Positions 33,397 to 44,194 of a DNA stretch of 64,000 bases are shown here, in pieces; the stretch's first letter is position 1; every line of letters starts with the position of its first letter. Both the position numbers and the translations under genes were made by a program. This stretch comes from Achromobacter sp. UMC46. Its GTDB lineage: Bacteria > Pseudomonadota > Gammaproteobacteria > Burkholderiales > Burkholderiaceae_B. Location of the stretch: the NCBI RefSeq assembly GCF_014170335.1, contig NZ_LZZS01000040.1, positions 62,001 to 126,000 on the forward strand, given 5' to 3'. Under the pieces are notes generated by a model, which was not told the origin of the DNA, ran no database searches, and saw nothing but the letters and a program-made list of their open reading frames with translations.

Positions 33397-33591
33397 CGCC
33401 GCGCATTGACGCCGCCCGTACAGGGCGCAAGCGCCAGAGCGGCCCGCAGAGGCCGCGTGGCGCGACAACAGATGCATCAACCCGATCAATACGCCCCGGC
33501 GGTCTCTGCTGGCGGGGTGCGGACGGTTCATGGCGAACCGGAATGCAAAGGACGGCCGAGTATCCGGCCGCCGACTCAAGGGGAAATCCAG

Positions 33592-34605
33592 ATGAAGCAC
33601 CATGCATTGCACGCTTGCGGGACAGCCGCCCTGGCGATGGCCGGCCTGATGTGGGGCGCCAGCGCCCAAGCCCAAGCCCAGGCCCAGGCGCTGAAAGCGC
33701 CTGCCGATTATCCCAAGCAGGCCATCACCGTGGTTTCGCCGTTTCCACCAGGAGGCGGCAACGACAATGTGGCGCGCCTGATCGCCCAGGAGCTGGGCGC
33801 CATCATCGGCCAGAGCGTCGTGGTGGAAAACCGCTCGGGGGCGGGCGGCAACGTCGGCACGGCGCAGGTGTCGCGCGCCAAGCCCGACGGCTACACCCTG
33901 GTGATGTCGCAGACCAGCGTCATGGCCGTCAACCCGCGCCTGTACAAGAACGTGGGGTTCGATCCTGTCAAGGATTTCACGCCGATCTCGCAGATCACGT
34001 CGGCGCCGCTGGTGCTGGTGGCGCGTACCGAAAGCCCGTACAAAACGCTGGGCGACTATCTGGATGCCGCGCGCAAGCAGCCGGGCATCATCACGTACGC
34101 GACGCCCGGCAACGGCACCATGAGCCATCTGATGGGCGCGCTGGTGTCGAAGAAAGCGGGCGTTAACCTGGTGCATGTGCCATACCGCGGTGCGGCGCCC
34201 GCCATCACCGACCTGATGGGCGGCACGGTGGACATGCTGATCACGTCGCCCGCGTCGGCCGAACCGATGGTGACGGCGGGCAAGCTGCGCATCCTGGCCC
34301 TGAGCCACGAAAACAGCATCGGTGTATTCAAAGACGCGCCGACGCTCAAGCAAAGCGGCCTGGACGGCATTACCGCCGACGACTGGTACGGCTTGTTTGC
34401 GCCTGCCGGCACGCCGCCCGAACGCGTCACCTATCTGGCGGCCGCCGTGGCGCAGGCGATGAAGTCGCCCAATGTGATCGCCAAGATCAACAGCGGTGGC
34501 AGTTGGCCGGTGGGCAGCCAGCCCGACGCTTTCAAGACGCGCCTGCAGGAAGACACAGTCTATTGGGCCGACATGGTGAAGACGGCGGGGGTATCGCTGG
34601 ATTGA
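33592..34605 (+). CDS. Bug-family periplasmic solute receptor
   Basis: The 337-residue receptor has a signal peptide with a Gln-Ala repeat near its cut site (about residue 30). Family motifs are present: ITVVSPFPPGGGNDNVARLI, VVVENRSGAGGNVGTA and HVPYRGAAPAITDLMGG. The ATG at 33592 has AGGGG upstream. It lies 195 bases after the rhodanese gene on the same strand and may be the uptake receptor for the sulfur compound degraded by that operon. No TctA/TctB partner is nearby, so it must use a shared permease or act as a sensor. Confidence 0.88.
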   Translation: MKHHALHACGTAALAMAGLMWGASAQAQAQAQALKAPADYPKQAITVVSPFPPGGGNDNVARLIAQELGAIIGQSVVVENRSGAGGNVGTAQVSRAKPDGYTLVMSQTSVMAVNPRLYKNVGFDPVKDFTPISQITSAPLVLVARTESPYKTLGDYLDAARKQPGIITYATPGNGTMSHLMGALVSKKAGVNLVHVPYRGAAPAITDLMGGTVDMLITSPASAEPMVTAGKLRILALSHENSIGVFKDAPTLKQSGLDGITADDWYGLFAPAGTPPERVTYLAAAVAQAMKSPNVIAKINSGGSWPVGSQPDAFKTRLQEDTVYWADMVKTAGVSLD

Positions 34606-34635: not shown

Positions 34636-35397
34636 CTACACCGCCAGCACGTTGCCTACCGCGGCCTTCAGCGCCGCATAGGCGGGCAACTTCTGTGCAC
34701 TGGTGTTGGTGACCAGATGGTCGATGCGGTCCGCGCCGCAGAACGACACGCGGCTGCACAGGCCGATCTTGCTGAAGTCGGCCAACAGCACCAGTTGCTT
34801 GGCATTGGCCGTCATCGCGCGGGCGACTTCGGCCTCGCGCAGGTCGTAATTGGTGGCGCCGCACTCCGCGTCGACGCCTACCGGCGACAGCATCGCCAGG
34901 TCGGCGCGGTAGCGGTGGATCTCGGCGATGGTGATGTCGCCGGCGGTGGCGCAGACTGGACCGCCGACCGCGCCGCCCAGCATGATCAGCTGATTGGCGC
35001 CGTTGCCGGCCGCGCCCACTTTCAACGCCACGTCGAACGAGTTGGTGATGATGGTCAGGCCGGACAGCTTGGCCAGTTCGTCGGCCAATACGCTTGTGGT
35101 GCTGCCCGCGTCCAGGAACAAGGTCTGGCCGCTGGAAACGAGACCCGCCGCGGCGCGCGCGATGGCGCGCTTGAACTTCACGCGCGTGTGCACGCGTTCG
35201 GCGATCGGGGGTTCGCTGTGCACCGGCACGGCCCCGCCGTGCACGCGACGCAATTCGCCCATGGCCTCCAGTTCAAGCAGATCTCGCCTGACGGTTTCGC
35301 GCGACACGCCGAGCTCGCCCACGATGCGGTCGGTCGATACCTGCTGCAATGACGACAGCAGGGCGCGGATTCTCTGATACCGCTCTTCTTGCCACAT
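34636..35397 (-). CDS. DeoR-family transcriptional regulator
   Basis: The 253-residue regulator has the DeoR helix-turn-helix (residues 6-60, LSSLQQVSTDRIVGELGVS followed by RETVRRDLLELE) and the sugar-phosphate-isomerase-like sensor domain (DAGSTTSVLADEL and LGGAVGG). Members of the family usually sense phosphorylated metabolites. It is the last gene of the minus-strand transporter operon, 17 bases after the permease, and probably represses both arms of the divergent locus. Confidence 0.9.
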   Translation of the reverse strand: MWQEERYQRIRALLSSLQQVSTDRIVGELGVSRETVRRDLLELEAMGELRRVHGGAVPVHSEPPIAERVHTRVKFKRAIARAAAGLVSSGQTLFLDAGSTTSVLADELAKLSGLTIITNSFDVALKVGAAGNGANQLIMLGGAVGGPVCATAGDITIAEIHRYRADLAMLSPVGVDAECGATNYDLREAEVARAMTANAKQLVLLADFSKIGLCSRVSFCGADRIDHLVTNTSAQKLPAYAALKAAVGNVLAV

Positions 35398-35414
35398 ATC
35401 CGATGCTTCCTAAT

Positions 35415-37100
35415 CTATCTCCGCCGCCGCGCCGCCCCGGCGATCAACGCGCGCATGGCCAGCAGAGAACCTCCAACGACCAGCATGATAAGCGTGGAAT
35501 ACGCCGCCGCCTGCGAAACGAACCCGGCCTCGTCCAGCCGCAGCACGGACACCGGCGCCACGCTGACGGTCGGCGTCACCAGGAAGATCACCGCCGACAG
35601 CGTCACCATCGACCGCATGAACAGGAAAAAGAACACGCCCAGCACGGTGGGCCCGATCAGCGGCAGCACCGCATCGCGCAGCACTTGCACCGTGCCGCCG
35701 CCCAGGCAGCTGACCGCTTCCTCCAGGGCCTGCGGCACGGCGCGCATTCCCGTCATCATCGTCAGGAACCCTTGCGTGTGATAGTGGTAGAAATTGCACA
35801 GCGCGATCAGCGCCGCACTGCCGTACAGCGCGTACAGGGGCGTGCCGGGCGCATTGAACGCGAAGATGTAGGACAGCCCCAGCACCAGGCCGGGCACCCC
35901 CACGGGCAGCACGGACAGCAGGTACACGATCTTGGCCCAGCCGCGCCCGATGCGGCAAACGCCGAAGCACAGGAAAAACAGCAGCAGCACGCCGCCGCCG
36001 GCCGCTGCCAGCGACAGGTACAGCGACGTCCACAGGGGGGCGTAGCCGCCGCTGACGGTGATGTCGTAGTGCTTCAGCGTCCATTCCATGCGGTACGGCC
36101 AAAGCCGCATGAAGCTGGCGAAGACCACCGTCGCCACCGTCAGGATGATCGTGCCGCAGGCCAGCAGCACGCCGATGCCGAACACCGCGTCGCGGACGGG
36201 GGCGCGCTGCGGCGCCACCCGCAAGCCGCTGGGCGACGCCGACCCGAACTGGCGTTGTGAGGCCACGCGTTCGATCTGCACGGAGATCAGCGACGGCAGC
36301 AGCAGCAGGATGCCCACCACCGACCCCATGCCGAAATTCATCTGGCCCGACACCTGGCTGTAGATCTCCGTGGCCAGCACGCGGTAATTGCCGCCGATCA
36401 CCGCCGCGTTGCCGAAGTCGGTGATGGTGATGACGAACACCACGAAGGCGGCGCTCAGCAGGCCGAACTTGCAATTGGGCAGGGTGATGTCGAAGAACTG
36501 CCGCCCGCTGGATGCGCCCATGACTTCGGCCGCGTCGTAGTAGCGGGCGTCCGTGTTGCGCAAGGCCGCCTGCAGGATCAGCACCGCCTGGGGCAGGGCG
36601 TAGAACACGTTCGAAATCAGCAGGCCCCAGAAGCCGTAGATGTCGACCTCCCAACCCGTCCACCTGTGCACCAGCCCGTTGCGCCCCAGGATGAATATCA
36701 GCCCCAGGCCCTGCACCAGCGATGGCGCCAGCAGCGGCAGCACCAGCGCCAGCCGCACGATCGCCTTGCCGCGCATGCAGCTGCGGTCCAGGCCATAGGC
36801 GATGGCGAAGCCCAGCGTGATGCTCACGGCAGTGGTGGCCGCGCTCATCACGAGGCTGTTGACGGTGGCGGTCAGGATGCCGCGGGTGGCAAAGACCTCG
36901 GCATAGTTGCCCAGCCCGATCGAGCCGTCCTTTTCCACCAGGCTGCGCCATGCCACGGTGGCCAGCGGGTACAGGAAGAACAGCGCCAGGCCCGCCAGCG
37001 GAATCGCCACGCAGGTCCACAGCAGCAGCCGGTCCGCCGACCAGGGGGCGCGTCCGGCCGGCGCCGCGATGTCCGCGCCGACGTGCAGTGTGCTCATCAA
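35415..37100 (-). CDS. ABC transporter permease, fused double-domain, aminoethylphosphonate/iron type
   Basis: The 561-residue permease fuses two permease domains of about 270 residues with roughly 12 membrane segments in all. Each half carries an EAA loop: YYDAAEVMGASSGRQFFDIT and QALEEAVSCLGGGTVQVLRD. This layout occurs in FbpB-type iron and in putative 2-aminoethylphosphonate permeases. The adjacent receptor and ATPase resemble the aminoethylphosphonate group more than the iron group. It begins 19 bases after the ATPase gene. An internal Met at codon 2 is an alternative start. Confidence 0.85.
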   Translation of the reverse strand: MMSTLHVGADIAAPAGRAPWSADRLLLWTCVAIPLAGLALFFLYPLATVAWRSLVEKDGSIGLGNYAEVFATRGILTATVNSLVMSAATTAVSITLGFAIAYGLDRSCMRGKAIVRLALVLPLLAPSLVQGLGLIFILGRNGLVHRWTGWEVDIYGFWGLLISNVFYALPQAVLILQAALRNTDARYYDAAEVMGASSGRQFFDITLPNCKFGLLSAAFVVFVITITDFGNAAVIGGNYRVLATEIYSQVSGQMNFGMGSVVGILLLLPSLISVQIERVASQRQFGSASPSGLRVAPQRAPVRDAVFGIGVLLACGTIILTVATVVFASFMRLWPYRMEWTLKHYDITVSGGYAPLWTSLYLSLAAAGGGVLLLFFLCFGVCRIGRGWAKIVYLLSVLPVGVPGLVLGLSYIFAFNAPGTPLYALYGSAALIALCNFYHYHTQGFLTMMTGMRAVPQALEEAVSCLGGGTVQVLRDAVLPLIGPTVLGVFFFLFMRSMVTLSAVIFLVTPTVSVAPVSVLRLDEAGFVSQAAAYSTLIMLVVGGSLLAMRALIAGAARRRR

Positions 37101-37119
37101 TGGCCCCCGCTCGGCGGCG

Positions 37120-38127
37120 TCATGTGCTGACCCAGGCGCATTCGCCGGGCGCCATGTCCAGCCGCACGGACGCGCCGCGCGACAGGCCTGCCGCCCCGTG
37201 CTGCTCGACCACCAGTTCGCGCCCCATCCACGCCACGCGCAAGCGCGTCAGGTTGCCCATGAAGGTCATGTCCTGCACGCGGCCGGGCCCCTGTTCGTCA
37301 GCGGCGATGCGCAGGTTTTCCGGGCGCAGGCAGGCCTCATAACGCTCGCTGGCGCCTTCCGGGCGCGTCGCCAGCAGGTGGGGCATCGCGTCGCGCACCC
37401 AATCGGTGGGCAGCAGATTGCTCAGGCCCACGAAATTGGCCACGAACCGCGTGCGCGGCCGCAAATAAAGGTCGGACGGGGACCCTACCTGCTCGATGCG
37501 CCCGTCGTTCATGCAGACGATCTTGTCGGCCAGCGTCAGCGCTTCTTCCTGGTCATGCGTGACCATGATCGTGGGGATCTTCAATCTGCGCTGCACGTCG
37601 TGGATCTCGGCGCGCATGTCGGTGCGCACGCGGGCATCCAGCGCTGACAGCGGCTCGTCCAGCAGGATCAGCGCCGGGTCCACGGCCAGGGCGCGCGCCA
37701 GCGCCACGCGCTGTTGCTGTCCGCCCGACAGCTGGTGCGGATAGCGCGGCGCGTAGTCGGGCAGCTTGATCAACGTCAGCAGTTCGCCCACCCGCGCGGC
37801 GATCCGGTCGCGCGGTTCGCCTCGGATGCGCAGGCCGTAGCCCACGTTCTCGGCTACCGTCATGTTGGGAAACAGCGAGTACGACTGGAACACGATGCCG
37901 AATCCGCGCTTGCGCGCAGGCAGTCCGCTCAGGTCGCGGCCGCCCAGGGTGATGGTGCCCCCGTCGAAAGGCAGCAGGCCCGCCACGATGCGCAGCAAGG
38001 TCGTCTTGCCGCAACCGCTGGGGCCCAGCAGGCAGACGAATTCATGTTCGCCGACGGAAAGGTCGATGCCCTCCAGCGCCACCGACGCGTCGAAGGTTTT
38101 CCGTATGCCGCGCAGTTCCAGATACAT
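37120..38127 (-). CDS. ABC transporter ATP-binding protein, PotA/PhnT-like
   Basis: The 335-residue ATPase shows Walker A GPSGCGKTT, Q-loop GIVFQSYSLFPNMTVAENV, signature LSGGQQQRVALARAL, Walker B LILLDEPLSALDARV and the H-loop VTHDQEEAL. A TOBE-like regulatory domain lies at about 235-335. The core strongly resembles putative aminoethylphosphonate transporter ATPases (FPNMTVAENVGYGLRIRG). It lies between the receptor and permease genes. Confidence 0.88.
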   Translation of the reverse strand: MYLELRGIRKTFDASVALEGIDLSVGEHEFVCLLGPSGCGKTTLLRIVAGLLPFDGGTITLGGRDLSGLPARKRGFGIVFQSYSLFPNMTVAENVGYGLRIRGEPRDRIAARVGELLTLIKLPDYAPRYPHQLSGGQQQRVALARALAVDPALILLDEPLSALDARVRTDMRAEIHDVQRRLKIPTIMVTHDQEEALTLADKIVCMNDGRIEQVGSPSDLYLRPRTRFVANFVGLSNLLPTDWVRDAMPHLLATRPEGASERYEACLRPENLRIAADEQGPGRVQDMTFMGNLTRLRVAWMGRELVVEQHGAAGLSRGASVRLDMAPGECAWVST

Positions 38128-38175
38128 GGCGTCTCCCGGACGCTAGGGCGGCGGGCCGGGCCCGCCGCGCCAGCC

Positions 38176-39186
38176 TCAACGCTTGATGGTGTCTTGCCAG
38201 GTCTTGATCGTGGCGTCGCGCTCGGCGGCGGACTTCTGGAAGTCCACCGGATACAGCACCGCAGTCAGGTCCTTGGGCAGGCCTGCCGCTTCGGCCGCCT
38301 TGTTGGGGGCGGCGCCAGGAATGGTGACGAGTTCCTTGTACTTGCTATACAGGCCGCCCGCCTGCGCCGACAGCGTCCAGTCCAGGAAGCGCTTGGCGTC
38401 CGCGGGGTTCTTCGCCGTCTTCATCAGGCCGGACGCCTCCAGCTCGTAGCCGACCCATTGCTTGGGGATCACCATCTTCACCGGGTAGCCTTCTTCGATG
38501 GATTGCATGGCGGGGAACGCGAACGACACGCCGATCGCGTATTCGCCGGCGCGCGCCATCTTGCAGGGGCGCGATCCCGATGGCGTGTACTGCGCCACGT
38601 TCTTGTCCAGGTCCTTCAGCAGTGCCCAGCCCTTTTCCTTGCCCAGGCCTTGCAGCAACGCGACGATCTGCAGGTAGCCCGTGCCTGAAGCGGCCGGGCT
38701 GGGGATGACGATCTCGCCTTTGTAGGCGGGGTTGGCCAGGTCCTCCCACGACGCGGGCATGGGCAGGTTCTTGGATTTCAGCCGATCGGTGTTGACACAG
38801 AAGGCGGCGACGTAGCCGGTGGCGGCGAACCACTTGTTGTCGGCGCTCTTGTATTGGGCGGGCAGGGCGTCGATGCCCTTGGCCGCATAGGGTTCCAGCA
38901 GGTTCTGCAGGCGCGGGTCCAGCATGTTGCTGACGGCAAAACCCCAGATCACGTCCTGCTGCGGGTTTGCGGCTTCGGCGATCAGCCGGGCGCCCAGGTC
39001 GCCGGTAGACAGGCGCAACACGTTGACCTTCACGTCCGGCATGGCTGCGTTGGCCGCCTTCAGATAGGCCGCGATCTCGTCTTCCTCCAGCGCGGTGTAC
39101 ACGGTGATCGGCCCGGCCGTGGCCGCGTGGGCATAGCTTAGGGAAATTACTGCAACCACAACGCTAAGCTTCTTCATACATTGCAT
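38176..39186 (-). CDS. ABC transporter substrate-binding protein, aminoethylphosphonate (PhnS2/AepX-like) type
   Basis: The 336-residue receptor has a signal peptide (MQCMKKLSVVVAVISLSYA, cut near Ala-Thr-Ala). The mature part ITVYTALEEDEIAAYLKAAN, the ANPQQDVIWG segment and the late QYTPSGSRPCKMARAGEY motif match the group of putative 2-aminoethylphosphonate receptors. I chose the ATG at 39186 because GGAG lies seven bases upstream; longer (39216) and shorter (39177) starts are possible. It leads the transporter operon, divergent from the phosphatase gene. Confidence 0.85.
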   Translation of the reverse strand: MQCMKKLSVVVAVISLSYAHAATAGPITVYTALEEDEIAAYLKAANAAMPDVKVNVLRLSTGDLGARLIAEAANPQQDVIWGFAVSNMLDPRLQNLLEPYAAKGIDALPAQYKSADNKWFAATGYVAAFCVNTDRLKSKNLPMPASWEDLANPAYKGEIVIPSPAASGTGYLQIVALLQGLGKEKGWALLKDLDKNVAQYTPSGSRPCKMARAGEYAIGVSFAFPAMQSIEEGYPVKMVIPKQWVGYELEASGLMKTAKNPADAKRFLDWTLSAQAGGLYSKYKELVTIPGAAPNKAAEAAGLPKDLTAVLYPVDFQKSAAERDATIKTWQDTIKR

Positions 39187-39336
39187 GATGGGACTCCGGT
39201 GGGGAATACACGGCAACGGTGTGAGCTACTGATGCGGACGGCGACCTGCCCTGAACAGGGTTAGGTTGCAGTTTTAGGTATATTTGCAAATTTGGGGCAA
39301 CGTGTCTAGACTGGAAAAACCCCTGGGAGCACAGTG
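39187..39336. promoter_or_regulatory. Divergent promoter region with three palindromes
   Basis: The 150 bases between the transporter and enzyme operons hold CCCTG-AA-CAGGG (39249-39260), ATTTGCAAAT (39282-39291) and GTCTAGAC (39304-39311). Any of these could be the DeoR operator. I could not fix the promoters. Confidence 0.5.
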
Positions 39337-40143
39337 ATGCAAACCTCCGCCGCACTGCCGGCGCAGCAATTGGCCGAATATTCCTCGTTCGCGCAAACCC
39401 TCGCGGACCGGGTCCGGCCCTTGTCCTGCAAGGGGTTCCGGCACCCGCTGTCCGTCGATACCAAGGCGGACGAAAGCCCCGTTACGCAGGCCGACCGCGA
39501 AGTCGAGGCCGCGCTGCGCGAGGCCATCGCGCAGCACTACCCCCAACACGGCATCTTCGGTGAAGAGTTCGGCGCCCTGCATGCCGAGGCCGATCTCGTG
39601 TGGTCGCTGGACCCCATCGACGGCACGCGCGCCTTCATTTCGGGCAATCCCTTGTGGGGCACCCTGTTGGCGCTGCTGCACCGGGGCCGCCCGGTGCTCG
39701 GCCTGATCGATATCCCCATGCTGCAGGAACGCTGGATCGGCGCGGCAGGTTCGCCGGCGCGCTTGAATGGCGCCCTCTGCCACGCCAGCGCCTGTACCGA
39801 ACTGCGCGACGCGATCCTGTACGCCACCTCCCCCGACATCTTCGAGGGCGCCGAACTGGCGGCCTTTGACGCCTTGACCCGCGCCGCGCGCATGCGGCGC
39901 TACGGGGGCGACTGCTACAGCTACGGGCTGCTGGCCAGCGGCCATGTCGACCTGGTGGTCGAAGCCGGCCTGCAACCCTATGACTATCTGGCGCTGATGC
40001 CCGTGATCGAAGGCGCGGGCGGCGTCATCACCGATTGGGCCGGGCAGCCGCTCAGTCTCGAATCGCAGGGCCGCGTCGTCGCGGCCGCCACGCCGCAGCT
40101 GCATCGCCAGGCGATGCGGGTGCTGGGGGCGGCCATGACCTGA
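39337..40143 (+). CDS. Inositol-monophosphatase-superfamily phosphatase, HisN (histidinol-phosphatase) type
   Basis: The 268-residue enzyme has the metal-binding motifs of the superfamily: GEEFG (Glu76/Glu77), LDPIDGTRAF (Asp92, Asp95) and Asp216 in QPYDYLAL. The WSLDPIDGTRAFISG core followed by PLWGTLLAL, with a late RRYGGDCYSYG segment, is characteristic of HisN-type histidinol phosphatases, which act on a phosphorylated amino alcohol. It leads the enzyme operon, away from any histidine genes, so a different amino-alcohol phosphate is likely. GGGAG precedes the ATG at 39337; a GTG directly before it is an alternative. Confidence 0.85.
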   Translation: MQTSAALPAQQLAEYSSFAQTLADRVRPLSCKGFRHPLSVDTKADESPVTQADREVEAALREAIAQHYPQHGIFGEEFGALHAEADLVWSLDPIDGTRAFISGNPLWGTLLALLHRGRPVLGLIDIPMLQERWIGAAGSPARLNGALCHASACTELRDAILYATSPDIFEGAELAAFDALTRAARMRRYGGDCYSYGLLASGHVDLVVEAGLQPYDYLALMPVIEGAGGVITDWAGQPLSLESQGRVVAAATPQLHRQAMRVLGAAMT

Positions 40144-40201
40144 ACGCCGCGCCGCCCGCCCGCAGGTCAACGCAACGCTTCAGCCACAAAGGTGAACGAG
40201 C

Positions 40202-41587
40202 ATGCATGCACTAGGGGTAGCAACGGTGGAAGACGCGGAGCGGCTGGTGCAAGCCAGCCCGCTCTCGCATATCAAGGTGGGCTTGTCGGACGTCGACGGC
40301 GTCATGCTGGGCAAGTACTTGCGACGCGACAAGTTCCTGGGCGCGCTGCGCTCCGGCCTGGCGTTCTGCGACGTGGTGCTCGGCTGGGACCTGGACGACC
40401 AGCTCTACGACAACACCCAGTACACCGGCTGGCACACCGCCTACCCCGACGCCAAGCTGCGCATCGTGCCGCAGACCGGGCGCAGGCTGCCGCTTGAGCA
40501 AGGGCCGGGCGGCGAAGACATGCTGCTGTTCCTGGCCGAATTCGAAGGGGAGGCGGCGGCCATCTGCCCGCGCCGGCTGCTGCACCGCACGCTGGATCGG
40601 GCGGCAGGCATGGGCTACGAGGTCTACGCCGCGCTGGAATACGAGTTCTTCATGTTCCGCGAAACCCCCCATTCGGTCCGCGCGAAGAACTACCGCAACA
40701 TGGAAAACTGGACGCCGGGCAACTTCGGCTACTCCGTGCTGCGCAGCACCGTCGAGGGCGAGTTCTACCGCAAGCTGCTGGACATGTGCGAACGCATGGA
40801 CATGCCGATCGAAGGCCTGCACACCGAAACGGGGCCGGGCGTGCTGGAGGCGGCCATCGCGGTGGACCAGGCGGCGGCGGCGGGCGACAAGGCGTTCCTG
40901 TTCAAGACCTTCACGAAAGCGCTGGCGCAGCAGAACGGGCTGATGGCGACCTTCATGGCCAAGTGGTCGCATGACCATCCGGGCCAAAGCGGCCACATCC
41001 ATTTGTCGCTGCGCGACAGGAAGAGCGGCCATTCGGCGTTCTACGACGAATCGCAGCCGCACGGCATGAGCGCCACGCAGGTCGCGTTCATGGCGGGCGT
41101 GCAGCGCTACCTGCCGGAATTCATGGCGCTGTACGCGCAGACGATCAACAGCTATTCGCGCCTGGTGCCGGGCTACTGGGCGCCGCTGGACGCGACCTGG
41201 GGCATGGAGAACCGCACCACCGCGCTGCGCCTCATTCCCGGCAGCGACAAGTCGCAGCGCGTCGAAGTGCGCATTGGCTCGGCGGACGCCAATCCCTACC
41301 TGGCGCTGTCCGCCGCGCTGGCTTCCGGCCTATATGGCATCGAGCAAGGGCTCAAGCCCGAACCCATGGTCCAAGGCAATGCCTACACCCAGCAATTCCC
41401 GGCCCACCTGCATCTGCCGACGACCTTGTGGGAGGCGGCGCAACGGCTGCGCGGATCCGAAGCGGCCCGCCATCTGTTCGGCGACCCGTTCGTCGAGCAC
41501 TACGCCGCGACGCGCGAGTGGGAAGAACGGCAGTTCCGGCGCCACGTGACCGACTGGGAGCTGGCGCGCTACTTCGAAATCATCTGA
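40202..41587 (+). CDS. Glutamine-synthetase-like gamma-glutamyl amine ligase
   Basis: The 461-residue protein has the glutamine synthetase fold, with metal and glutamate sites Glu146/Glu148 (ALEYEFF), Glu209/Glu216 (TETGPGVLEAAI), His265/His267 (SGHIHLSL) and the NSYSRLVPGYWAP and RVEVRIGSADANPYLALSA motifs. Sequence type and setting point to the PuuA/GlnT-like group, which joins glutamate to amines, rather than housekeeping GlnA. With alcohol and aldehyde dehydrogenases next to it, an amino alcohol could be gamma-glutamylated and then oxidised. The N-terminus (SDVDGVMLGKYLRRDKF) is the usual one for this group. Confidence 0.85.
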   Translation: MHALGVATVEDAERLVQASPLSHIKVGLSDVDGVMLGKYLRRDKFLGALRSGLAFCDVVLGWDLDDQLYDNTQYTGWHTAYPDAKLRIVPQTGRRLPLEQGPGGEDMLLFLAEFEGEAAAICPRRLLHRTLDRAAGMGYEVYAALEYEFFMFRETPHSVRAKNYRNMENWTPGNFGYSVLRSTVEGEFYRKLLDMCERMDMPIEGLHTETGPGVLEAAIAVDQAAAAGDKAFLFKTFTKALAQQNGLMATFMAKWSHDHPGQSGHIHLSLRDRKSGHSAFYDESQPHGMSATQVAFMAGVQRYLPEFMALYAQTINSYSRLVPGYWAPLDATWGMENRTTALRLIPGSDKSQRVEVRIGSADANPYLALSAALASGLYGIEQGLKPEPMVQGNAYTQQFPAHLHLPTTLWEAAQRLRGSEAARHLFGDPFVEHYAATREWEERQFRRHVTDWELARYFEII

Positions 41588-41616
41588 TCCCGTCCAACCG
41601 CACGCATAGGGCCACC

Positions 41617-43005
41617 ATGACCCAGGAACTCATCACCATTAGTCCCATCGACGGGCGCGAGGTCGTGCGCCGCGCCTATGCCAATGAGGCGCAGATCGCG
41701 CAGGCGCTGGCGCAAGCCCAGTCCGCGCAAGTGGCGTGGCACACGCTTGGTGTGGCGGAGCGGGGGCGCATCGTGTCCGCCGCGGTCGACCGCTTCGTGG
41801 CCGCCAAGGACGAGATCGCGCGGGCGATCACGATCCAGATGGGGCGCCCGTTGCGCTACACGCCGGGCGAGGTCGCCGGGTTCGAAGCCCGCGCGCGCCA
41901 CATGATTTCCATCGCCGACGTGGCGCTGGCGCCGCTCCGCATGCCAGAGCAGGCCGGCTTCACGCGCTTCGTCAGCCGTGAACCCATCGGCGTCGCCCTG
42001 ACCATCGCGCCGTGGAACTATCCCTTGCTGACGGCGGTGAACAGCATCGTCCCGGCATTGATGGCCGGCAACACCGTCATCCTGAAGCATTCCGACCAGA
42101 CGCCCCTGTGCGCCGAATTGATGGAGCGCGCGTTCCGCGACGCCGGCGTGCCCAAGGGCGTGTTCCAGACCCTGCATGCCAACCACGACACCGTCCAGCG
42201 GCTGATCCGCGCGCCCGAGATCGGCTACGTGTCGTTCACGGGGTCGGTGCGCGGTGGACGCATCGTCGAGGAAAGCGCAGCGGGGCGCTTCATCGGCGTC
42301 GGCCTGGAACTGGGCGGCAACGATCCGGCCTATGTGCGCGCGGACGCCAAGTTGGACCACGCGGTCGAGACCCTGGTCGACGGCGCATTCTTCAATTCAG
42401 GACAGTCCTGCTGCGGCATCCAGCGCATCTACGTCGCGCGGGCACGGTACGACGAGTTCGTCGAACGGGCGGTCGAGCTGACAAACGGTTACGTACTGGG
42501 CAATCCGCTGCACGCCGATACGACGCTGGGGCCCGTCGTTCGCACCCGCGCCGCGGCCGAGATCCGCGAAGTCGTGGCCGAAGCGCTGTCGGCCGGCGCC
42601 CAAAACATGATCGATCCTTCGCATTTCAATAATGCGAGTGAAGGCTCGCCTTATGTCGCGCCCGCGTTGCTGACGCGAGTAAACCATCGCATGCGCATCA
42701 TGAACGATGAATGCTTCGGCCCCGTCGTCGGCATCATGCCTGTCGATACGGACGAAGCGGCCGTCGCGTTGATGAACGACAGCCCTTATGGGCTGACGGC
42801 CGCGGTGTTCACGCAGGACGAAGACGCCGCGCTTGCGCTGGGCCGGCAAGTGCGCACGGGCACCTTCTTCATGAACCGCTGCGACTATCTGGACCCGGCA
42901 CTCGCGTGGACCGGCGTCAAGAATACGGGCCGCGGCGTGTCGTTGTCCGCCATCGGCTACGAGCAACTCACCCAAGCCAAATCCTTTCATCTGCGAAGCG
43001 TCTGA
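41617..43005 (+). CDS. NAD(P)-dependent aldehyde dehydrogenase
   Basis: The 462-residue enzyme has the aldehyde dehydrogenase fold. Cofactor contacts are IAPWNYPLLTAVNSIVPAL and VSFTGSVRGGR. The general base Glu is in LELGGNDPAYV (about residue 232) and the catalytic Cys is in NSGQSCCGIQR (about residue 265, with a second Cys beside it). The ATG at 41617 is 29 bases after the ligase gene. It likely oxidises the aldehyde produced by the downstream alcohol dehydrogenase. The sequence does not reveal the exact substrate. Confidence 0.9.
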   Translation: MTQELITISPIDGREVVRRAYANEAQIAQALAQAQSAQVAWHTLGVAERGRIVSAAVDRFVAAKDEIARAITIQMGRPLRYTPGEVAGFEARARHMISIADVALAPLRMPEQAGFTRFVSREPIGVALTIAPWNYPLLTAVNSIVPALMAGNTVILKHSDQTPLCAELMERAFRDAGVPKGVFQTLHANHDTVQRLIRAPEIGYVSFTGSVRGGRIVEESAAGRFIGVGLELGGNDPAYVRADAKLDHAVETLVDGAFFNSGQSCCGIQRIYVARARYDEFVERAVELTNGYVLGNPLHADTTLGPVVRTRAAAEIREVVAEALSAGAQNMIDPSHFNNASEGSPYVAPALLTRVNHRMRIMNDECFGPVVGIMPVDTDEAAVALMNDSPYGLTAAVFTQDEDAALALGRQVRTGTFFMNRCDYLDPALAWTGVKNTGRGVSLSAIGYEQLTQAKSFHLRSV

Positions 43006-43030
43006 TCGAGGCGCCTTCAGGAACCGAACC

Positions 43031-44194
43031 ATGACTGTGCCCAGCGTTAATTGGAACTACCCCACCGCAATCAAAGCGGGCCCCGGCCGCATCAAGGAAC
43101 TGGCCGATTGGTGCGCGGAACTAGGCATGAGGCGGCCCTTGCTTGTCACGGACCCGGGCCTTGCCGCATTGCCGATGGTGGGCGACGCCGTGCGCGCCTG
43201 CCGCCAGGCGGGCCTGGAGTGCGGCCTGTTCCACGAGGTCAAGGGCAACCCCACGGGCCGCAATGTCGATGACGGCGTGGCGGCCTACCGGCAAGGCAGG
43301 CATGACGGCGTCATCGCTTTCGGGGGCGGCTCCGCGCTGGACGCCGCCAAAGCCATTGCCCTGATGGCGGGCCAGAAGCGGCCCCTGTGGGATTTCGAGG
43401 ACATCGGCGACAACTATCTGCGTGTGAACGTGGCCGGGATGGCGCCCGTGGTGGCGGTGCCCACCACCGCAGGAACCGGGTCCGAAGTGGGGCGCGCATC
43501 CGTCATCACGGACGAGGCCGCGCAGGTCAAGCGCATCATCTTCCATGCGCGCATGTTGCCCGCCGTCGTCATCCTGGACCCGGTCCTGACGGTGGGGCTG
43601 CCGCCCAAGATCACGGCGGCGACCGGCATGGACGCGCTGTCGCACAATCTTGAGGCCTACTGTTCACCGTTCTTCCATCCGATGGCGGCGGGCATTGCCA
43701 TCGAAGGCATGCGCCTGGTCAAGGAATACCTGCCCCAGGCAGTGGCCGACGGCACCGACCTTCAAGCCCGCCAGCAGATGCTGGTGGCCTCCAGCATGGG
43801 CGCCACCGCCTTCCAGCGCGGCCTGGGTGCCATGCACGCGCTGGCGCACCCGCTTGGCGCGCTATACGACGCACATCACGGCATGTTGAACGCGATCCTG
43901 ATGCCCTATGTGCTGAAAGCCAACCAGCATGCGGTGGCGCCGCGGCTGGAGGCGCTGGCTCGCTACCTGGATTTGCCCGCGACGGGCCCGGGTGCGGTGC
44001 TGGACTGGGTGCTGCGCCTGCGCGAAACCGTGGGCATTCCCCATACGCTGGCCGAGATCGGCATCGACGAGGGCGAGGCCGACCGGGTAGGGCGCATGGC
44101 AAGCGAGGATCCCTCAGGCGGAACCAACCCCATTATTTTCACCGCCGACGAGTATTCTCAACTTTTGCGTGCATCAATTCGCGGAAACCTGTAA
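43031..44194 (+). CDS. Iron-type (group III) alcohol dehydrogenase
   Basis: The 387-residue enzyme has the NAD(P)-binding GGGSALDAAKAIALM motif, TTAGTGSEVGRASVI, and the metal-site region GMDALSHNLEAYCS through MHALAHPLGALYDAHHG. It most likely oxidises the hydroxyl group of the operon's substrate to an aldehyde. It starts 25 bases after the aldehyde dehydrogenase and ends the operon. 113 bases separate it from the tRNA cluster. Confidence 0.9.
   Translation: MTVPSVNWNYPTAIKAGPGRIKELADWCAELGMRRPLLVTDPGLAALPMVGDAVRACRQAGLECGLFHEVKGNPTGRNVDDGVAAYRQGRHDGVIAFGGGSALDAAKAIALMAGQKRPLWDFEDIGDNYLRVNVAGMAPVVAVPTTAGTGSEVGRASVITDEAAQVKRIIFHARMLPAVVILDPVLTVGLPPKITAATGMDALSHNLEAYCSPFFHPMAAGIAIEGMRLVKEYLPQAVADGTDLQARQQMLVASSMGATAFQRGLGAMHALAHPLGALYDAHHGMLNAILMPYVLKANQHAVAPRLEALARYLDLPATGPGAVLDWVLRLRETVGIPHTLAEIGIDEGEADRVGRMASEDPSGGTNPIIFTADEYSQLLRASIRGNL

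Follow-up and report, generated by a model that had tools for sequence, protein, structure and literature searches.

A very common phospholipid of bacteria has phosphoethanolamine as its headgroup, and this compound can supply phosphorus, nitrogen and carbon together. Among the described systems related to its uptake and use, PhnS2/PhnT2/PhnU2 (TIGR03261, TIGR03265 and TIGR03262) is a putative 2-aminoethylphosphonate ABC importer composed of a receptor, an ATPase and a fused permease, and AepXVW is presumably a related aminoethylphosphonate transporter. The Puu pathway links a ligase with two dehydrogenases, and GlnA4 of Streptomyces is, we assume, a comparable gamma-glutamyl amine ligase. Parts resembling both kinds of system are encoded by a divergent eight-gene locus of the soil-type bacterium Achromobacter sp. 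UMC46 (genome G000), at positions 34636 to 44194 of a 64,000-nucleotide stretch of contig NZ_LZZS01000040.1 (G000:C40:62001-126000; hereafter the window). One operon encodes the receptor, ATPase, fused permease and a DeoR-type regulator, and the other encodes a HisN-like phosphatase followed by a triad of a glutamine-synthetase-like ligase, an aldehyde dehydrogenase and an iron-type alcohol dehydrogenase. All eight ORFs are intact where the first-pass annotation had placed them, and family searches agreed with its labels. That annotation had named a phosphorylated amino alcohol as the substrate. The general proposal stands, and the partner genes of relatives narrow it to phosphoethanolamine as the most likely predicted substrate, since relatives of the importer and phosphatase are paired with EutBC or a phospho-lyase homologue and relatives of the triad with an ethanolamine permease. 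From these comparisons we consider it probable that phosphoethanolamine enters the cell whole by means of this locus and serves as a source of phosphate, nitrogen and carbon.

In the predicted pathway, the receptor, ATPase and fused permease would carry phosphoethanolamine into the cytosol, where the HisN-like phosphatase would convert it to ethanolamine and phosphate. The ligase would couple ethanolamine to the gamma-carboxyl group of glutamate. The iron-type alcohol dehydrogenase and then the aldehyde dehydrogenase would oxidise the hydroxyl end to give gamma-glutamylglycine, from which a hydrolase encoded elsewhere would release glutamate and glycine. The order first proposed for the locus (a phosphate ester is imported, dephosphorylated, gamma-glutamylated and then oxidised twice) gave the best fit to the comparative evidence. 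Gene content, conservation, exchanges of partner genes and the lack of EutB or of an over-cut-off ethanolamine permease in G000 were observed directly, and all substrates and reactions given here are predictions.

Reference genomes were scanned with the ligase, and the best 80 loci of at least 591 confirmed candidates (14 Achromobacter and 66 other) were compared. The 14 closest ligase genes of these 80 loci were 93-97% identical and all came from Achromobacter records, the next being 80% identical. The aldehyde and alcohol dehydrogenases of the window had a match no more than 6.5 kb from the ligase in 69 and 74 of the 80 loci, respectively, some contigs of which end within the stretch examined. 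Records with the triad were titled beta- or gammaproteobacteria, Desulfocapsa, Desulfopila and Myxococcales. Joint conservation of the whole set, which the first-pass annotation had proposed to look for, was found within Achromobacter, where receptor, phosphatase and ligase occurred together in 13 of 14 loci fetched (all except L014), and largely failed elsewhere, with the receptor in only two of 66 loci (L025 and L029). Therefore, the locus consists of two modules: the importer, phosphatase and regulator form the first, and the ligase and two dehydrogenases form the second. The arrangement is not due to chance, because the genes stay together in nearly all these Achromobacter loci and each module recurs in other classes. 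We hold that the way in which the modules are recombined still supports phosphoethanolamine as the substrate.

When 399 genomes of the order were searched with the receptor, 51 had a match at E 1e-60 or better; the receptor was 57-100% identical in five of them, and all other matches were at most 43% identical. At 1e-90, matches were found in 4 of 398 genomes of a phylum sample and in 3 of 369 genomes of a class sample (G000 sits in the order, phylum and class samples alike, and G447 in two of them). Among the best 40 of 134 plasmid records with a match, 16 carried a receptor at 51-70% identity, followed by the next at 44%, and the gene contexts of eight of the 16 were opened.

The genes beside the importer in these relatives point to ethanolamine or its phosphate. 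In G207 (L113), hisN is divergent from receptor-ATPase-permease-deoR and the triad is found elsewhere in the same genome. On the chromosome of G388 (L114), the importer/hisN module is followed by eutB and eutC (EutB 732 bits against a cut-off of 554; EutC 326 against 230), and this genome has no close ligase, the best match being 30% identical. An Azospirillum plasmid (L163) has eutC-eutB-hisN divergent from the importer, with scores of 701 and 310 bits against the same EutB and EutC cut-offs. In Klebsiella (L164:7259-13444 and L165:7261-13444), the importer and deoR are divergent from a class III pyridoxal-phosphate enzyme that stands in the place of the phosphatase. The best PDB relatives of the L164 enzyme and of its L165 counterpart were 6tor (ethanolamine-phosphate phospho-lyase, 344.5 bits) and 5g4i (phospholyase, 319.3 bits), and the third relative (184.7 bits) was about 135 bits behind these two. 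In G447 (L177), the importer and deoR are accompanied by an enzyme that shares 74% identity with this Klebsiella phospho-lyase homologue. A HisN-like gene accompanies the importer in Roseinatronobacter (L166), Sagittula (L167), Shinella (L170, where the protein is only 42% identical to that of the window) and G774 (L180). The importer was found with a HAD-type hydrolase, with no specific family over cut-off, in Sulfitobacter (L168) and Martelella (L169), and with no match to the enzyme queries used in G286, G317, G645 and G693. Both Klebsiella plasmids were typed as conjugative.

A tree of receptor and permease, without the ATPase, was built from 21 importer loci and 17 paralogues. Of the 13 Achromobacter loci with a receptor, it took in three of L003, L005, L007 and L016 (L005 was dropped for its broken receptor match) besides the window, and it left out L127, whose permease was not found, and L165, a near copy of L164. 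A core importer clade of 15 rows, distinct from the aminoethylphosphonate transporters, was recovered with a support of 100. Each of its rows had an enzyme gene, which was HisN-like in 13 and encoded the phospho-lyase homologue in two. The two phospho-lyase rows did not group together: L164 joined L114, the row with hisN and EutBC (support 100), and L177 fell with L166 and L170 (support 90). DeoR relatives remain with the importer in most core loci.

The triad gave a separate indication of ethanolamine. The ligase (40202..41587, plus strand; PF00120, 322 bits), read here as a putative glutamate-ethanolamine ligase, is followed on the same strand by the aldehyde dehydrogenase (41617..43005, with a predicted start at about 41617; PF00171, 415 bits) and the iron-type alcohol dehydrogenase (43031..44194; PF00465, 173 bits; PF25137, 144 bits). 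The ligase is 26% identical to the GlnA of the same genome and falls outside GlnA as modelled by TIGR00653 (216.3 bits against a cut-off of 429.15). In glutamine synthetase, ammonium gives up a proton to the Glu of the YEAP motif. This residue is Glu in the GlnA of G000 and Trp in the window ligase and in five of five aligned relatives, and an amine substrate is therefore plausible. Like PuuA (NF045547), the ligase has a glutamine-synthetase catalytic domain; unlike PuuA, it scored far under the model cut-off (174.2 bits against 650) and its relatives are linked to an ethanolamine permease. A match to the L060 permease, used as the query, lay near the ligase in 17 of the 66 non-Achromobacter loci. 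Of 11 triad-linked permeases scanned, ten exceeded the cut-off of the ethanolamine permease model TIGR00908 by at least 160 bits, the exception being L077 (358 bits against 381.75). The ligase and both dehydrogenases are thus linked to ethanolamine transport in relatives. A EutR-like regulator stands beside the triad in L029 (227 bits, under the cut-off of 319), and relatives of this regulator were found in L025, L034 and, at 38% identity, L017. In two Legionella-type records, genes of families for RiPP maturation were observed near the triad: an MNIO bufferin maturase over cut-off (L041:3935-4798) and an HvfC-like gene under cut-off (L035:9070-9852).

The phosphatase (39334..40143, plus strand) belongs to the inositol monophosphatase family (PF00459, 186 bits) and exceeds the HisN cut-off (TIGR02067, 295.9 bits against 275.15). 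It resembles HisN in family and score and differs in its context, which is ethanolamine breakdown and not histidine synthesis. The protein lacks a close counterpart in G237, another genome of the genus (best match 32%), and the gene is therefore hardly a housekeeping histidinol-phosphatase. Histidinol phosphate was considered as the substrate and is made less likely by G237 and by the gene context, namely eutBC and the importer as partners. The annotation as histidinol-phosphatase probably assigns a wrong function, and we predict that the protein is a phosphoethanolamine phosphatase. A search of plasmids with the window protein gave 147 records. In four of the seven loci fetched (L212, L213, L215 and L221), the HisN-like gene directly precedes eutB-eutC. 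Two phosphotransferase genes come before it in L212, L213 and L215, and the annotation of one of the two in L212 and L213 is choline or choline/ethanolamine kinase; phosphotransferase genes lie further down in L217, and neither these nor eutBC are present in the stretches of L214 and L216. HisN-like genes that precede eutBC without the importer provide evidence that does not depend on it. The rhizobial plasmid clusters L212:4077-10960, L213:4016-11001 and L215:4019-10959 encode a DeoR regulator, a Zn-dependent hydrolase, the two phosphotransferases, the HisN-like protein, EutB and EutC, and possibly break down an ethanolamine amide via a phosphorylated intermediate.

Two routes of ethanolamine use are available for comparison. 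The EutBC route shares the entry module in L163 and L114; G000 has no match to EutB (PF06751), and the triad would stand in its place. The route through ethanolamine kinase and phospho-lyase would share phosphoethanolamine as an intermediate. There, as in L218, entry through a permease comes before phosphorylation, whereas none of the 20 importer loci matched the kinase and permease queries. A search for the phospho-lyase homologue gave 365 records with a match, and three loci were fetched through it. These lack the importer described here. A phosphotransferase occurs in L218, together with an annotated ethanolamine permease, and in L219; L220 encodes a different ABC importer. No ethanolamine permease over the TIGR00908 cut-off was found in G000 (best 98.8 bits against 381.75). 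Most simply, phosphoethanolamine would be brought in ready made by the importer. In G000, import and dephosphorylation seem to replace permease entry, and the triad seems to replace EutBC.

Several observations weigh against import and breakdown of phosphoethanolamine by this locus, and some of them favour other explanations. The receptor has SGTG and SGSxPC stretches in common with aminoethylphosphonate-type relatives, and phosphoethanolamine and 2-aminoethylphosphonate, an ester and a phosphonate, have nearly the same shape; the choice of ligand is therefore not readable from the sequence. These points, together with best NCBIfam matches to the putative aminoethylphosphonate models, would suit an importer of 2-aminoethylphosphonate whose neighbouring operon has an unrelated task. 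However, the receptor (38176..39216, minus strand; TIGR03261, 343.4 bits, cut-off 392.75), the ATPase (37120..38127, minus strand; TIGR03265, 406.5 bits, cut-off 457.7; PF00005) and the fused permease of the putative phosphoethanolamine importer (35415..37100, minus strand; TIGR03262, 484 bits, cut-off 593.25) all scored under the curated cut-offs. Therefore, the kinship proposed in the first-pass annotation is right, and membership of the aminoethylphosphonate type is not supported by the scores. The order of receptor, ATPase and fused permease is that of PhnS2/PhnT2/PhnU2, with receptors about 40% identical, but the importer falls in a separate clade and is partnered by a phosphatase, EutBC, phospho-lyase or the triad instead of the phosphonate genes searched.

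No phnW- or phnX-like gene was found among the eight genes by the family searches, as had been noted before, and the 20 importer loci gave no matches to PhnW, PhnA, PhnX-like, PhnM or FAD oxidoreductase queries. PhnY matches of 27-31% identity occurred in five of these loci, and in four of the five the match was the aldehyde dehydrogenase of the triad. In contrast, PhnW, PhnA or PhnY was found at 47% identity or more in seven of 18 paralogue loci, with the phosphonate-gene queries taken from L171 and L172. Four others had only an FAD oxidoreductase relative (34-36%), five had nothing, L171 has its own phosphonate genes and L121 has a PhnM relative 7.6 kb away. None of the 18 matched hisN, EutBC or phospho-lyase. 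G000 itself has a second importer of the same kind, L117 (G000:C35:58886-78380), with a receptor 42-43% identical and an FAD oxidoreductase relative beside it, which perhaps serves aminoethylphosphonate. For these reasons we regard 2-aminoethylphosphonate as a very unlikely substrate of the window importer.

Relatives of the importer outside the core clade also weigh against a phosphoethanolamine importer. Six rows, placed between the core clade and the paralogues, have a HAD-type hydrolase (two) or no match to the enzyme queries (four). In L115:2662-10140 (support 77 for its placement), a receptor 57% identical, with ATPase and permease, lies beside genes resembling TonB, ExbB/ExbD and an outer membrane receptor, as judged by eye, and its ligand may differ. 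The nearest PDB chains to the window receptor were 6wce, 4r72 and 8x1a at 146-138 bits, and the next chain scored 58. The 6wce title is pyridoxal-5-phosphate-binding protein, and 4r72 and 8x1a carry iron-transport titles. The P5PA (6wce) and AfuA (4r72) receptors, the closest solved relatives at 145-146 bits, are phosphate-ester binders, the former by its title and the latter presumably, as a receptor of sugar phosphates. Their ligands, pyridoxal phosphate or sugar phosphates, are unlike the one proposed here, and the likeness is at the level of the receptor. Iron or a polyamine as the ligand was rejected, with the three best PDB relatives far ahead of the rest and adjoining enzyme genes ill-suited to iron; the rejection does not extend to importer relatives outside the core clade.

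The separability of the modules is a further point of this kind. They are joined in only the two non-Achromobacter ligase loci named above, L014:8732-12828 has the triad alone without the importer, and G138 (L205:662-5650) keeps hisN with the triad, again without the importer. In addition, no protein of G000 scores higher against TIGR02067 than the HisN-like one, the second reaching 252 bits. The rarity of joined modules and this ranking could indicate two unrelated back-to-back operons, one for an organophosphate importer and the other a dehydrogenase/ligase set for another amine or 4-hydroxybutyrate, with HisN serving histidine synthesis. The best NCBIfam names of the dehydrogenases, 4-hydroxybutyrate dehydrogenase (343.6 bits, cut-off 500) and succinate-semialdehyde dehydrogenase, would agree with this arrangement. 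Yet each module separately points to ethanolamine, the HisN-like gene alone precedes the ligase in L021 and L023, and G237 does without a close HisN-like copy. Two unrelated operons are therefore quite unlikely. The share of four in seven for HisN-like genes before eutBC is itself biased, because L212 and L213 were chosen with EutB or choline/ethanolamine kinase already listed. The two importer-free Achromobacter-type loci, L205 and L014, each adjoin a tctC-like gene.

The dehydrogenase names, which are not those of ethanolamine enzymes and are all under cut-off, also speak against the proposed pathway. Gamma-glutamyl ligases and iron-type alcohol dehydrogenases accept a range of amines and alcohols, and in such broad families the same enzyme order could act on another amino alcohol, imported as, for example, 1-amino-2-propanol or 3-aminopropanol phosphate. 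We consider this unlikely, as the partners EutBC, phospho-lyase homologue and ethanolamine permease all indicate ethanolamine or phosphoethanolamine. Finally, no hydrolase for the last step of the phosphoethanolamine pathway was found linked to the locus in searches of G000 for MlrC-like, amidotransferase and PF07722 proteins. MlrC-like matches of up to 48% and amidotransferase matches of up to 29% identity occur in this genome, and six matches exceed the low cut-off of PF07722, all partial and the best at 41 bits. Of the 66 non-Achromobacter loci, 30 have a class I amidotransferase-like gene close to the ligase and 11 have an MlrC-like M81 peptidase gene there (e.g. L018:14013-15488). Either gene would suit gamma-glutamyl hydrolysis as the last step, and the two may encode alternative gamma-glutamylglycine hydrolases.

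Glycerophosphoethanolamine, with another enzyme splitting the diester, was also weighed as the imported compound. In L214, a phosphodiesterase and an ABC importer of another, sugar-type kind are clustered with the HisN-like gene, which would fit such a route. Family searches found no diesterase among the eight genes, however, and the phospho-lyase partner of the importer needs a monoester, so that this substrate appears highly improbable.

The DeoR/GlpR-type regulator (34636..35397, minus strand; PF00455, 136.7 bits; PF08220, 53.5 bits) may control both divergent promoters, and its signal is probably a phosphorylated metabolite, although this view of the regulation is a guess. The promoter region (39187..39333) holds a candidate regulator site, and part of the region is similar across the Achromobacter loci compared; the real start of the receptor, read by eye, is probably the ATG near 39186. 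In a repeat-spacing test with a pattern chosen after viewing the sequences, the observed value was matched or exceeded by at most 8 of 200 shuffles in 6 of 12 promoter regions and by at least 42 of 200 in the other six, with 73 for the region of the window. Upstream of the locus, a lone TctC-type receptor gene (window 33472-34602; PF03401, 244 bits) has no transporter partners seen adjoining it.

The locus is built of known parts, and what it offers is a modular entry route and two likely corrections of annotation. With a little less assurance than for the locus itself, we think it likely that a dedicated importer for phosphoethanolamine exists in bacteria as a sister of the aminoethylphosphonate transporter, and that a phosphoethanolamine phosphatase has gone unrecognised among proteins named histidinol-phosphatase. 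The two would form an entry module that moves between chromosomes and plasmids, including conjugative ones, and feeds at least three routes: gamma-glutamylation, EutBC and phospho-lyase. The exchanges of partner genes provide a ready list of proteins for bench tests of the claim. If it is true, two annotations would need correction, aminoethylphosphonate-like for the receptors and histidinol-phosphatase for the phosphatases, and the importer with its cytosolic phosphatase would be a route distinct from extracellular hydrolysis followed by ethanolamine uptake.

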